Shown in pieces: positions 14,342 to 54,341 of a stretch of DNA of 64,000 nt. The position numbers and the translations under genes are program-made. The DNA comes from Methanococcoides methylutens (GTDB lineage: Archaea > Halobacteriota > Methanosarcinia > Methanosarcinales > Methanosarcinaceae): contig NZ_JRHO01000014.1 of the NCBI RefSeq assembly GCF_000765475.1, positions 575,687-639,686 of the forward strand, read 5' to 3'. Under the pieces are notes generated by a model that was not told the DNA's origin, searched no databases, and was given only the letters and a program-made list of their open reading frames with translations. Each line of letters opens with the position of its first letter. Within the stretch, counting starts at the first letter, position 1.

Positions 14342-15745
14342 TTATGCGATGGTTTCCCTGAACTTGTCACAGCAGTTGATGTTGATACCGAGGAGTTTCT
14401 CGATGTTCATCTTAGCTGCAATACCCTTTGCACAGCCAGGAACTGATGTGATTACGCCAATGTCGAGCTCTTCTCTGATCTCCCTCATGACGTACTCGTC
14501 GGAAAGGTCTGCGTTCTCGACACCGAGTTTCTTTGATACGAAGTCCTTTGCTTCGTTGATCCTCATGTTCTTTGTGAACTGCATCCTTGCAACAAGGTCA
14601 CCAGCTGCTCTCATTCCGGTCATACCTGATGCCATGATGTGTGCAATTGGCATACCGAGTGGGTCGCCCACACCGATCTATATACCGTCGACGCCTGCGA
14701 TCTCGACCATTGCCTTGCTTGCCCTGGTTACTGCATCTATTGGTGGTGTCTCAAGCATTGGGATACCGCCGACACCCATACCCATATCTACGTGACATGG
14801 TATTGGAGATGCCTCAACAGCTGCCTTCATGAAGGTAACTGAGCGACCAAGGTTCCATGCGGAGGTCTTGCTGGTGTTGGTGTTACATACAGGACCGAAG
14901 GTGTTTGCTCCTGCCTTTGCTGCAAGTAAAACCTGCTCGTGTGGCCAGAGACCTGCAAGTACTGTACCATCGTACTCAAGCTCTCCGTGCATACCGAGAA
15001 CGAGTTCTCCTGCCATACCTGCATTGATGTACATGTTAGGGAATTCTTTCCTGAGTGCTTCAATAGCATTGAAGGATGCATATGCATCACCATCACCAGC
15101 TGCACCGATGGTATCGAAGTTGACACCGTCGCAACCGACGTGCTGAAGTCTCTGCATGATCCAGACCATGTCACGGATTCCGTGGTCACCAGCTTTCTGG
15201 ATGGATTCCTGAGCTTCAGAGATCTTGAATGCTTTCATGAGGTCACCAGGGTTCTCGAATGGACCATCAGGAGTGTAGTACAGACCCATGTTTGGCATTG
15301 CACCGTAGAGCATAGGGATGACCATGTTCTGCTGGCAAACTTCCATTGTCTGCTGTTCCTGGGAGATAACTGGCTTGACAGGCTTGTAACTGTAGTCGAT
15401 GTGACCGAGTTCCATTGTGTCTGCACCGAATGCGCGCTCGTGGATCATGGAACCGACGAGTCTGCTTGCAGGAATACCTACACCACTGTTACCCTGGTCA
15501 CCATCGATCCTGATTGCACCGATGTCGTGTGTTACCGGAACTTCCATTCCTGGCTCTACACCGACAATTCTGCCAGGTGATGTGATGATATCGAGCATTT
15601 TCTCCATTTCATCTTCTGAGAGGGATGGGATGGTACCGAGGTCTGCTGCGTCAGCACAACCTGCTTCGATGTCAGCCATGATGTCTTCCTTGCTCATGAA
15701 GATCTTTGCGCCGTCACCCATTCTTAAGAAATATTCTGTTGCCAT
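14342..15745 (-). CDS. mtbB: Dimethylamine methyltransferase with in-frame UAG (pyrrolysine)
   Basis: Transfers a methyl group from dimethylamine to the corrinoid protein MtbC. The reading frame is 467 residues if UAG at 14678-14680 is read as pyrrolysine (residue 356); the context is EIAGVDGI[15 protein letters not shown], as in known MtbB. A normal annotation would split the gene into 355- and about 110-residue pieces. The frame ends in TAA. A ribosome-binding site lies in the gap to mtbC, 26 bases upstream, so the pair is cotranscribed. Decoding requires the pyl genes, which are not in this window. Confidence 0.95.
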
Positions 15746-18901: not shown

Positions 18902-20392
18902 TTACATGCTGGCTCTGAAGGCAGTATCTGCCTTGTCCACTACAGCCTGCATGTCTGCAAAGAGGTCAGCGTCGATAGCCTTTACCTCGTGGTTCTTCAT
19001 GATGTCAACAACCTTCTCGTGTGCGACGGTTGCAATATCCTTGGAACCTGCTGCTTCCCAGTCTCCGAACATGTCCCTGTCAAAGAGCTCTGGAGCAGAT
19101 ACGAGATTGAGGTTGTTCCTGGTTTCCTTGTGTGCAAGGAAGTTGTTACCGATTCCTACCTTCTGGATGGATGGTACAGCGAGTGTCTCGTCTGATACTG
19201 GGATACCGCGCATTGCAGACCTTGTCATCTTAATGATGTCAGCATCGATTACAAACTGCTCAAGGGAGAATGTCATACCGAGCTCGAGCATACCTCCACC
19301 GTAAATGGTGTTACATCCGGCGAATGCTGGGAGCAGGGTGGTCATTGTCTTCTCGTGGCCTGACTGTGTGTCTGGGACCTTGGCATCTGCCTAGGTACCT
19401 GCAACATAGGATGGGAGGCCATAGTACTGACCCATCTTACCGACTGCAGCGCTGATAAGACCGAGTTCTGGTGCACCGACTGGAGCTGTTCCTTTCCTCA
19501 GGTCGAAGGTTGTGGTTGAGCTACCGTAGAATACTGATGCACCTGGCTGGACGAGCTGTGCAAGTACGATACCTGCGAGGATCTCTGCGTTGTGTGTAAC
19601 GAGTGTACCTGCTCTGAATACAGGAGAAGATCCACCGGACATTGCCATACTCAGTACATTCACTGGCATACCGAAGCGTGCACCTTTGATGATGACCTGA
19701 CATGCGTTGACACTGAGCTCGAGTGGGCTGGTTGGGCAGAGAAGCATGGACATGATTGGCTTCTTGCGAGCTTCCTCAGAGTCGCCACCATAGTATGCGT
19801 CGACAATTCCCTTGTAGTACTCGACATTCTCACCGACAGGGTCGATGTGGTGGAAGTGTTTGCTAGTGCCTGCGAGAGGTGTGAGGGTCTCGTGGACATC
19901 CTGTGCTCCCTTTCCTGCCCAGTCCCTTGCGGAAACGGTAAGAGACATGTAGCTGAACTCATCGAGGTAGTCACAGACCTTTGCGGTATCTGCAATGTCC
20001 TGATCAACAGAGTCGACTGTCTCGTACTTGCCTGGTGAGATGTAATTGCACATCTTGACACCGGTACCGAAAGGTATGTAGTGGACCTTACCTTTGTGCT
20101 CCATATCGACGGTCTTCTTCTTGTCACGACCATAAAGCAGGAACCTGGATGGTGCGTCCATAAGTGACCTGTTTACAAGGAACTCTGGGATCTTTACTAC
20201 CTGGGTCTTCTCATCGACTTCACAACCAGCTTCCTTGAAGATTGCCCTTGCTTCTGGGTCAGATACCTGGATACCAGGGTTAAGGAATACTTCCATTGAA
20301 GCGTAGTGGATAGCTCTCATGTCATCATCGGAAAACAACTCTAACTGGATACCATCAAGAGGGAATCTTGCTGGGTACATACCTTCTACCAT
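18902..20392 (-). CDS. mttB: Trimethylamine methyltransferase with in-frame UAG (pyrrolysine)
   Basis: Transfers a methyl group from trimethylamine to MttC. Reading UAG at 19391-19393 as pyrrolysine gives 496 residues with Pyl at position 334; the flanks are LPSYVAGT[17 protein letters not shown], the expected MttB context. Without readthrough the gene would end after 333 residues. Conserved glycine-rich TIM-barrel segments such as [20 protein letters not shown] are present. GGAG lies 9 bases upstream of the ATG. First gene of the operon, behind a long leader. Confidence 0.95.
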
Positions 20393-51767: not shown

Positions 51768-51782
51768 TGGAAAGTGATCCCA

Positions 51783-52940
51783 ATGCCATATGAGCTGTTC
51801 ATTGCCCTCAGACATCTCAAAAGCAGGCGTCGTCAGTCACTCATATCCATAAGTGCCATTGGGATCGCGGTCACAATACTCGTGATCTCGAACGCTTTTA
51901 TGGCAGGATTCACAGAAGAGATCTATGATGTGACCGTCGAGAACCTCCCACATGTGGTAGTTACCCCTGCTGAGGAAGAGGAATACATCCATTTTTACAA
52001 TAGCATCATCCCCCGTATAGAAGGGATCGAGGGGGTGGTGGGAACCTCGCCCGCCCTGGATGGGGAAGCTACCCTTCAATACAAGGAGCAGACACTCAAC
52101 GTCTTAATGAGAGGAATAGAACCCGAAAAGGAAGATTCTGTATCCCACATCTCAGAGGACATGATAGAAGGGGACCTCTACAAGCTTATCCACTCCAAGA
52201 ATACAATTGTGATCGGTGACAGCCTTGCAGAGGAACTTGATGTGAAGATAGGCGATAAACTGTCCGTAAACTTCCCCACAGCAAACCCGGCATCCTATGA
52301 GATAGTAGGAATCTTTGACACAGGAACACCTGCAGACGATATCCTTACATACACATCCCTGAAGACCGCACAGGCATTCTATGATAGCGGCGATGCCATC
52401 AATGTTATCAACATCCGCCTTGCAGACTACAACGAAGACAAGAAGGTCGCAAAAGAGATCGAAGCTCTCGGTTACGAAGCATCTGGCTGGACAGAGACAA
52501 ATCCGGAGATCCTCCAGACCATCACCATTGAAACAACATCCAACAACATAATACTCGCACTCATACTCCTGATAGCATCGTTCGGAGTGGTCAGCACACT
52601 GAACATGGTGGTAATGGAAAAGGTAAAAGAGATAGGCGTTCTGATGGCCATGGGAGCACCTGCTTCCGTCATACGCAGGATCTTCATTTTGGAAAGCGGA
52701 ATCCTGGGGTTGATCGGTGCTGTCACAGGCTGCCTGCTTGGAACTGCCATTGCCCTGGCGATAGGAAGTTATCCGGTCCCTGCTGAATTTTATGGTATTG
52801 AGAAGATACCGGTGATCATCAACATTTCAGACATAATTATAACTGTTGTAGTCGTTTTTTTCCTCAACCTGATCGCAGGCGTTTACCCTGCCCAGCGCGC
52901 AGCCGGGCTGGATCCATTAGAGGCAATTTCAACACATTGA
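51783..52940 (+). CDS. FtsX/MacB-type ABC transporter permease
   Basis: A 385-residue permease of the LolC/MacB superfamily: one span near the N-terminus (LISISAIGIAVTILVISNAF), a large extracytoplasmic domain (residues about 40-240), and three C-terminal spans (SIASFGVVSTLNMVV-like, GLIGAVTGCLLGTAIALAIG, IIITVVVVFFLNLIAGVYPA). The ending PAQRAAGLDPLEAI is typical. The usual partner ATPase is not adjacent. ATG 51783 is chosen over GTG 51774 for spacing from GGA. Confidence 0.85.
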   Translation: MPYELFIALRHLKSRRRQSLISISAIGIAVTILVISNAFMAGFTEEIYDVTVENLPHVVVTPAEEEEYIHFYNSIIPRIEGIEGVVGTSPALDGEATLQYKEQTLNVLMRGIEPEKEDSVSHISEDMIEGDLYKLIHSKNTIVIGDSLAEELDVKIGDKLSVNFPTANPASYEIVGIFDTGTPADDILTYTSLKTAQAFYDSGDAINVINIRLADYNEDKKVAKEIEALGYEASGWTETNPEILQTITIETTSNNIILALILLIASFGVVSTLNMVVMEKVKEIGVLMAMGAPASVIRRIFILESGILGLIGAVTGCLLGTAIALAIGSYPVPAEFYGIEKIPVIINISDIIITVVVVFFLNLIAGVYPAQRAAGLDPLEAISTH

Positions 52941-53041
52941 AAATAAATAGATTTGTTTCAGTGGTAACGCCGTTACGCCATTATAATATAGTAGATGTGA
53001 TAGTTTAAATCGATCCAAAGAAGCTTTCCTGCCGTTAAGTG

Positions 53042-53047
53042 TATATA
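53042..53047 (+). promoter_or_regulatory. TATA box of candidate small RNA copy 1
   Basis: TATATA in the context AAGTGTATATACAATTA, 33 bases before the first arm of the stem; the expected start is near 53070. Confidence 0.5.
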
Positions 53048-53069
53048 CAATTAGGAAATAGTCCAAATT

Positions 53070-53167
53070 GTGTAATGAGCGGGACCCTAATTTCTTTTCA
53101 AGTACCCCCACTCCCCAACCCGCTCATGTCACTTTACATCAGTATTTTGCTTAATGAACTGTTTTTT
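53070..53167 (+). ncRNA. Candidate small RNA, copy 1
   Basis: A TATA box 25-28 bases upstream, a perfect 9-base stem ATGAGCGGG (53075-53083) with CCCGCTCAT (53119-53127), a 35-base pyrimidine-rich loop ending in ACCCCCACTCCCCAA, and a T6 run at 53162-53167 define a possible transcript of about 98 nt. The C-rich loop could pair with G-rich ribosome-binding sites. Expression is not shown by sequence alone. Confidence 0.5.
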
Positions 53168-53236
53168 GTAGATGTTGACGAAGAGATTGTAATACATTAT
53201 TGTATATTAGACAAAGGTATAATTTGCCGTAAAGTG

Positions 53237-53242
53237 TATATA
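53237..53242 (+). promoter_or_regulatory. TATA box of candidate small RNA copy 2
   Basis: TATATA in the same context (AAGTGTATATACAATTA) and at the same 33-base distance from the stem as in copy 1. Confidence 0.5.
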
Positions 53243-53264
53243 CAATTACGAGGTAGTATTCGTT

Positions 53265-53362
53265 GTGTAATGAGCGGGGCCCTAATTTCTTTTCAAGTAC
53301 CCCCACTCCCCAACCCGCTCATGCCACATTTCATCAGCATCTCATTTAATGAACTGTTTTTT
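53265..53362 (+). ncRNA. Candidate small RNA, copy 2
   Basis: Same arrangement as copy 1: stem ATGAGCGGG (53270-53278) with CCCGCTCAT (53314-53322), identical C-rich loop apart from one base (G for A next to the stem) and a T6 run at 53357-53362. The 3' part diverges from copy 1 more than the stem and loop do. Confidence 0.5.
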
Positions 53363-53420
53363 AGACATGTCAATGACAATACAGTAATGCTGTATTGTAT
53401 ATTGCACAATCGTATAATTA

Positions 53421-54341
53421 TTAGATATTATTAAAAATATCAATCATGTGTTTTGCAAGATCTTTGCTTATATCCACAGAGCTCATCAGAGTATCCGTAA
53501 AGAAGACATCAATCCCCATGTCCATCACAGGATCTCCTGCAGACCCATCCCTTACATCAAGGATCATTGCATCAAGGAGTCCATTGTAGCACTCTGCAAC
53601 CCCAACTGAAGAAACATCGAAGCCACAGGCACTCATCAATTTTCCTGCAGGCCCGCTTATTGGCTCCCTTCCTATGATAGGACTTACTGCAACCACTTTC
53701 TTCCCTTTGAGGATGTCACGCATACCAGGCAAGTTAATGATCGGACCAATACTTGTGATGGGATTGCTGGGACCTATCAGGACATTATCCTCCTTTTCAA
53801 GAGCTTCAATTACACCCGGAGATATGGATGCATCATCGATGCCATCCTGTGAAACCTCTAAGACCTCAGGCCCACCATGTTGTTTTACCCAGAAATCCTG
53901 AAAATGTATCCTTCCGGATGGCGTTGTTATCATTGTGGACACAGGATCATCCGACATTGGCAATATATGAGATCTGATCCCGAATAAAGAAGCCATTTTC
54001 TGCATAGCTTCTGTAAGAGAAAGGCCCTGCCTTAACATTTCAGACCGCATTATGTGCGTGGCCCTGTCAAGATCGCCTATCATCATCCCCTCGTCATGAC
54101 CGGCAAGCTTCATTGCATCATGAGTACTGAACGTATCATCCCTGACACCCCACCATTTCCCCTTGTCGATCCTATCAGAGAGTAAATAGAGCACAGTATC
54201 AATATCAGGAGTTATCAGATTTCCGGAGACCCACAGGTCTTCAGCTGTGTTCACGACCACAGTGATATCCTCCTCAGGAAGGACATTTCTTAAACCATCG
54301 ATCAATTTGGGAGTTCCCGTTCCGCCGGACAATACGATCAT
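53421..54341 (-). CDS. cofD: 2-phospho-L-lactate transferase CofD
   Basis: Makes F420-0 from Fo and lactyl-(2)-diphospho-5'-guanosine (306 residues). The N-terminal MIVLSGGTGTPKLIDGLRNV, the metal motif VVNTAEDLWVSGNLITPDID, and IGPSNPITSIGPIINLPGMR are diagnostic. It converges on the tandem small-RNA-like repeat. Confidence 0.94.
   Translation of the reverse strand: MIVLSGGTGTPKLIDGLRNVLPEEDITVVVNTAEDLWVSGNLITPDIDTVLYLLSDRIDKGKWWGVRDDTFSTHDAMKLAGHDEGMMIGDLDRATHIMRSEMLRQGLSLTEAMQKMASLFGIRSHILPMSDDPVSTMITTPSGRIHFQDFWVKQHGGPEVLEVSQDGIDDASISPGVIEALEKEDNVLIGPSNPITSIGPIINLPGMRDILKGKKVVAVSPIIGREPISGPAGKLMSACGFDVSSVGVAECYNGLLDAMILDVRDGSAGDPVMDMGIDVFFTDTLMSSVDISKDLAKHMIDIFNNI

Follow-up and report, generated by a model that had tools for sequence, protein, structure and literature searches.

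The window, the whole stretch of 64,000 nucleotides of Methanococcoides methylutens DNA analysed here, holds between a permease gene and cofD a direct repeat of two 195-nt units, each of which carries a TATA box, a hairpin with a large loop and a run of six Ts. The features are listed below in window coordinates.

51774-52940, + strand: upstream neighbour (context only), FtsX/MacB-like permease; Pfam FtsX and MacB_PCD; neighbour cluster c8, 5 members among the loci
53030-53224, + strand: predicted small-RNA gene, unit 1 of the tandem repeat (promoter, hairpin, T-run); covariance model R1 matches 53073-53129 with 62.9 bits
53042-53047, + strand: TATA box of unit 1 (TATATA), read from the letters, at the family-wide TATA-like position
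53075-53083, + strand: 5' arm of the unit 1 stem (ATGAGCGGG), from the fold; covarying
53091-53098, + strand: U-rich part of the unit 1 loop (TTTCTTTT)
53104-53118, + strand: C-rich putative antisense motif at the end of the unit 1 loop (ACCCCCACTCCCCAA), complementary to a conserved G-rich mRNA leader
53119-53127, + strand: 3' arm of the unit 1 stem (CCCGCTCAT), from the fold; covarying
53162-53167, + strand: T6 run of unit 1, probable terminator, read from the letters
53225-53419, + strand: predicted small-RNA gene, unit 2 (tandem copy); R1 matches 53268-53324 with 60.9 bits
53237-53242, + strand: TATA box of unit 2 (TATATA), at the same fixed distance as in unit 1
53270-53278, + strand: 5' arm of the unit 2 stem (ATGAGCGGG), from the fold
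53299-53313, + strand: C-rich putative antisense motif at the end of the unit 2 loop (ACCCCCACTCCCCAA), from loop comparison and the letters
53314-53322, + strand: 3' arm of the unit 2 stem (CCCGCTCAT), from the fold
53357-53362, + strand: T6 run of unit 2, probable terminator, read from the letters
53421-54341, - strand: downstream neighbour (context only), CofD, 2-phospho-L-lactate transferase; Pfam CofD; neighbour cluster c2, 9 members in two genera

Each unit is predicted to fold into a single hairpin whose loop is unpaired. Compared with dinucleotide shuffles, the fold of unit 1 has a z-score of -2.9 (0 of 200 shuffles as good) and that of unit 2 a z-score of -2.65 (4 of 200). A single base distinguishes the units within a core of about 61 bases (A at 53084, G at 53279) and the flanks are divergent, with an overall identity of 82%. 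A third, diverged copy of the family lies in the same genome at C14:985976-986037, on the minus strand. Elsewhere in the window, the Rfam elements PYLIS_2 and PYLIS_3 (pyrrolysine; mtbB and mttB) occupy 14581-14680 and 19294-19393, minus strand.

A class-wide family of genes for a structured RNA

Relatives were first gathered by a DNA search with the 15-base loop motif. At all but one (L066) of the 28 labelled or apparent archaeal motif loci that we inspected, complementary arms of changing sequence flank the motif, and upstream of them is an AT-rich stretch that is often TATA-like. From 30 relatives chosen by the loop motif alone (alignment A2) we built the covariance model R1. It detects the element in 225 of the 238 genomes that represent the window's class, including 150 of the 151 of high quality, and in 175 of the 186 from its order. 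Within a phylum-wide sample of 393 genomes, all 84 matches fell inside the class, and R1 found no element in any sampled genome outside it. Matches occur in every genome of family f6 among those listed; no copy was detected by R1 in genera g6 and g7 (G084-G089, G100 and G101), whose genomes measure 1.3-1.8 Mb. Genomes carry 1-20 copies, most of them 1-6 and those of Methanolobus 2-6, and the maximum of up to 20 is reached in Methanoperedenaceae (family f5). Some of the copies in Methanoperedens genomes (G068 and others of f5) stand in tandem.

Compensatory change in the stem is strong. Because the A2 seeds were picked by the loop motif, the invariance of their loop is by construction; their stem is independent of that choice. 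In A2, 91.5% of the stem cells are paired, both sides change in 8 of the 11 pairs, and cells with a double change number 62 against 24.5 in shuffles, while slid controls reach at most 51% paired. The 91 copies found by the model (alignment A3) give 94.6% of cells paired against 85.2% when shuffled and 108 double-change cells against 36, with A2 being the cleaner test of covariation because A3 was fitted to the model. Across these 91 copies the C-rich loop motif is nearly invariant, and in 90 of them a run of T4 or longer precedes it within the loop. Of 90 copies, 77 have a TATA-like motif whose start lies some 28 nt before the element, against 22 and 11 for two control windows, and 46 have a run of T5 or longer in the 80 nt that follow, compared with 28 and 15 at greater distances. 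The fixed distance of the TATA box is the mark, in sequence terms only, of an autonomous gene with its own promoter, as a trans-acting antisense small RNA would require.

Covariation, TATA position, loop lengths, the U-run and the distribution therefore point to a family of autonomous small-RNA genes, and on the strength of covariation, distribution and promoter position we regard it as nearly certain that these are structured RNA genes. Conservation across the class together with covariation is the decisive evidence that the pattern did not arise by chance. The original prediction, made from the window alone, had placed in two 195-bp units a TATA box, a 9-bp stem, a pyrimidine-rich loop with C-rich sequence, and a T6 run, and had described a near-identical core between diverged flanks; all of these were found where it had put them. 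Its proposal of a small RNA selected for structure is strongly supported by the compensatory changes, the fixed promoter position and the autonomous copies, and the covariance search it had suggested carries the element well past a local duplication. Codon-like conservation without compensation in the stem, named there as grounds for abandoning the idea, is the opposite of what relatives show, with compensatory stem changes and lengths that do not keep to a reading frame.

Copies occupy several syntenic sites. They adjoin cofD in two genera and in some others lie close to rfcL or to a gene for a pyrophosphatase, and an FAD-dependent oxidoreductase stands downstream of copies in several genera, including those of family f3 (the names of these last three genes were assigned by eye from sequence). 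The third copy in the window's genome (L129) and its orthologues L164, L168, L175, L176, L214, L218 and L222 lie 62-213 nt upstream of the FAD-dependent oxidoreductase on the same strand, a site that spans several genera and two families, and copies of this type possibly have a cis role there.

A G-rich leader as candidate target

Perfect 10-mer complements of the loop, located in the scanned sequence outside the gene starts, point to a leader present in tandem duplicate (C14:507758 and 508385), which precedes two small CxxC proteins without a Pfam match. The first of these, a zinc-ribbon protein, was detected in 113 of the 186 genomes, and its leader carries GGGGAGTGGG, a perfect loop complement, in every one of the 11 genomes from the window's genus. 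The genus thus keeps a site complementary to the loop on an mRNA that comes from another locus. Over these 11 genomes, the predicted duplex between loop and leader has an energy of -24.2 to -25.4 kcal/mol, which none of 60 shuffled motifs matched; some of the shuffled-leader controls reach the real full-length duplexes. Among 13 aligned leaders, which share 54% identity between two subgroups, only GGGGAGTGGGA forms an invariant run of at least five bases. By eye, the sequences of the window's own genome (G000) and of G092, G093 and G098 would let the pairing reach into the stem's 3' arm. The position of the site, 79-96 nt ahead of the ATG, is not that of the ribosome-binding site.

Zinc-ribbon homologues in Methanolobus and probable Methanosarcina lack a perfect site that is conserved; what they share is a slight bias, which is not independent. 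One Methanolobus zinc-ribbon gene has a complementary site 217 nt upstream. Since conservation of the leader site does not extend to the homologues of other genera, a class-wide target is missing despite the near-invariant loop.

At 1163 predicted gene starts in 1.26 Mb, about half of the genome, loop complementarity was not enriched over shuffled motifs, which, together with the distance of the conserved site from the ATG, speaks against a general masking of ribosome-binding sites. The original prediction had proposed that the C-rich loop could pair with G-rich ribosome-binding sites and had suggested target prediction against leaders: pairing is supported for one conserved G-rich leader in the genus, and pairing at ribosome-binding sites in particular is not supported. 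Most of the GGGGAGTGGG-N-ATG sites that we inspected stand in front of short frames judged spurious or fall on the antisense strand of the small RNA. The one conspicuous start-codon region is that of a PAS-domain gene in the window's genome, which reads GGGGAGTGGGAATG, is loop-complementary (C14:15668-15681, minus strand) and recurs in G094 (L350). Across the order (186 genomes), occurrences of the exact complement TTGGGGAGTGGGH exceed those of a reversed control pattern several-fold, an excess that includes some small-RNA variants and coding sites. The 16S and 23S rRNAs were set aside as partners, their best duplexes of about -18 kcal/mol being unremarkable as judged by eye, without a shuffle control.

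G-rich hairpins also occur away from the zinc-ribbon leaders. In Methanolobus, stand-alone hairpins of the form TTGGGGAGTGGGA(A)TTCTC are present in five copies in G128 (L449-L453) and at L444 in G115, the latter with a T6 run, all without a clear gene downstream; they may act as sponges for the C-loop RNAs or as their partners. Loci L455 and L456 (in G147 and G146) hold two G-rich hairpins (CGGGTTGGGGAGTGGGCCTGACCCG and GGGTTGGGGAGTGGGACCTGATCT) about 650-670 nt apart, one of which is upstream of a small membrane protein.

Probable antisense action and competing explanations

Because of the conservation of the leader site at the level of the genus, we consider it probable, from sequence comparison, that each unit encodes a small antisense RNA which acts in trans by pairing with target leaders. 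Judging by the TATA position, transcription would start at or just before the stem and would yield an RNA of roughly 60-100 nt, consisting of the large-loop hairpin and a tail that reaches the T-run. The U-run of the loop is a candidate binding site for an Lsm-type protein, and the C-rich seed (CCCACUCCCC and its neighbours) would anneal to the G-rich complement GGGGAGUGGG of target leaders, the best candidate target in the window's genus being the middle of the 5' UTR of the mRNA for the small CxxC..CxxC zinc-ribbon protein. The effect would most likely be a change in the stability or translation of the target, not direct masking of its ribosome-binding site.

The strongest competing explanation, which we think improbable, is that the RNA serves as a decoy or scaffold, offering its U-run and C-rich loop to a conserved RNA-binding protein, with mRNA pairing being secondary. 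A loop motif that is nearly invariant over the class, yet has no class-wide RNA target, would suit this role, and so would the repetition of the C motif (CCCACTCCC occurs two or more times per loop in 15 of 91 copies), but a pure decoy does not predict that the exact loop complement should be the sole invariant run in the zinc-ribbon leaders. It is less probable still that control runs in the reverse direction, with the G-rich hairpins of leaders and stand-alone loci acting as sponges that control the C-loop RNA; the five stand-alone copies of G128 and the T6-bearing one of G115 fit this idea, whereas the presence of the site within the leader of a conserved protein gene throughout the genus argues against it. 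We hold a role at the DNA level, as a palindrome bound by a regulator or as a mobile repeat, to be very unlikely: copies are multiple and intergenic, with two in 9 of the 82 sources examined, but the stem arms change sequence and yet stay paired, total length ranges from 51 to 82 nt, and the TATA box keeps its distance on one strand. An overlapping 131-aa frame (53039-53434), which runs uninterrupted through both units since their length is a multiple of 3, has a negligible chance of being a real small protein gene and is ruled out by length variation and stem covariation, since the element lengths of relatives fall in all three residues modulo 3, as is not expected of coding sequence, and conservation tracks the stem, not codons.

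Beyond antisense action at single leaders, we tentatively suggest, as a picture that is plausible rather than probable, a class-wide RNA-RNA network of C-loop small RNAs, G-rich leader hairpins and sponges, with lineage-specific targets such as zinc-ribbon microproteins, for which the loop would be held fixed. Near-universal in its class of methane oxidisers and methanogens, present in up to 20 copies, and combining a nearly fixed seed with an evolutionarily supported candidate target, the C-loop family would count among the more widely distributed regulatory RNAs of archaea. To our knowledge, few archaeal small RNAs have known targets. Model R1 makes the family annotatable in genomes, and its action can be tested in Methanosarcina, which is genetically tractable.

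Comparison with known small RNAs

A scan of the region against Rfam 15 gave no family at the gathering threshold, with weak chance matches only, and we found no description of the family in the open papers that were searched, where a literal search for the loop motif gave three unrelated matches. The initial remark that no description was known thus holds for these two sources; RNA-seq lists of M. mazei or Methanolobus may contain numbered members.

Among the small RNAs of M. mazei, sRNA162 and sRNA171 are duplicated and use a single-stranded region to base-pair with mRNA; sRNA162, which is restricted to Methanosarcina, is 191 nt long and combines three stem-loops with a linker of 39 nt, the region that varies most (PMC3510493). 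The C-loop family resembles them as a duplicated archaeal small RNA with a single-stranded pairing region, but has one covarying hairpin, a nearly invariant loop and a range that covers the whole class, and both this structure and this range exclude membership of the sRNA162 family. Identity with sRNA154 was also rejected: its published qRT-PCR primers (PMC11549558) are absent from all family loci collected, with best ungapped identities near the probable Methanosarcina copies of 13/21 and 15/22. According to reviews (PMC5867862, PMC6560208), sRNA41 (Buddeweg et al. 2018, doi 10.1111/mmi.13900) is reported to mask the ribosome-binding sites of several mRNAs. The cdhA genes of the ACDS complex, its reported target, were located. 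By description, sRNA41 is likewise intergenic and comes from an archaeon of the same order, and the passages on it mention no class-wide C-loop family (PMC5867862, PMC6560208). For Methanolobus psychrophilus R15, nine highly conserved cold-induced small RNAs are described that have their own promoters and a 'cold box' upstream of the promoter (PMC5378194). As far as that description allows a comparison, they resemble the C-loop family in being conserved, in having their own promoters and in coming from a genus that carries it, and they differ in number, being nine against the 2-6 copies in each Methanolobus genome.

In bacteria, small RNAs with C-rich loops, such as the staphylococcal RsaE type and the alphaproteobacterial 'cuckoo'/CcsR RNAs, use the loop as a seed that pairs with G-rich mRNA sites, and they are often multi-copy. 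The likeness to the C-loop family lies in the mode of action, a hairpin loop presenting a C-rich seed. The archaeal family is set apart by its domain of life, by the union of a U-run and a C-motif in one large loop, and by a candidate target site that lies mid-leader and not at the ribosome-binding site.
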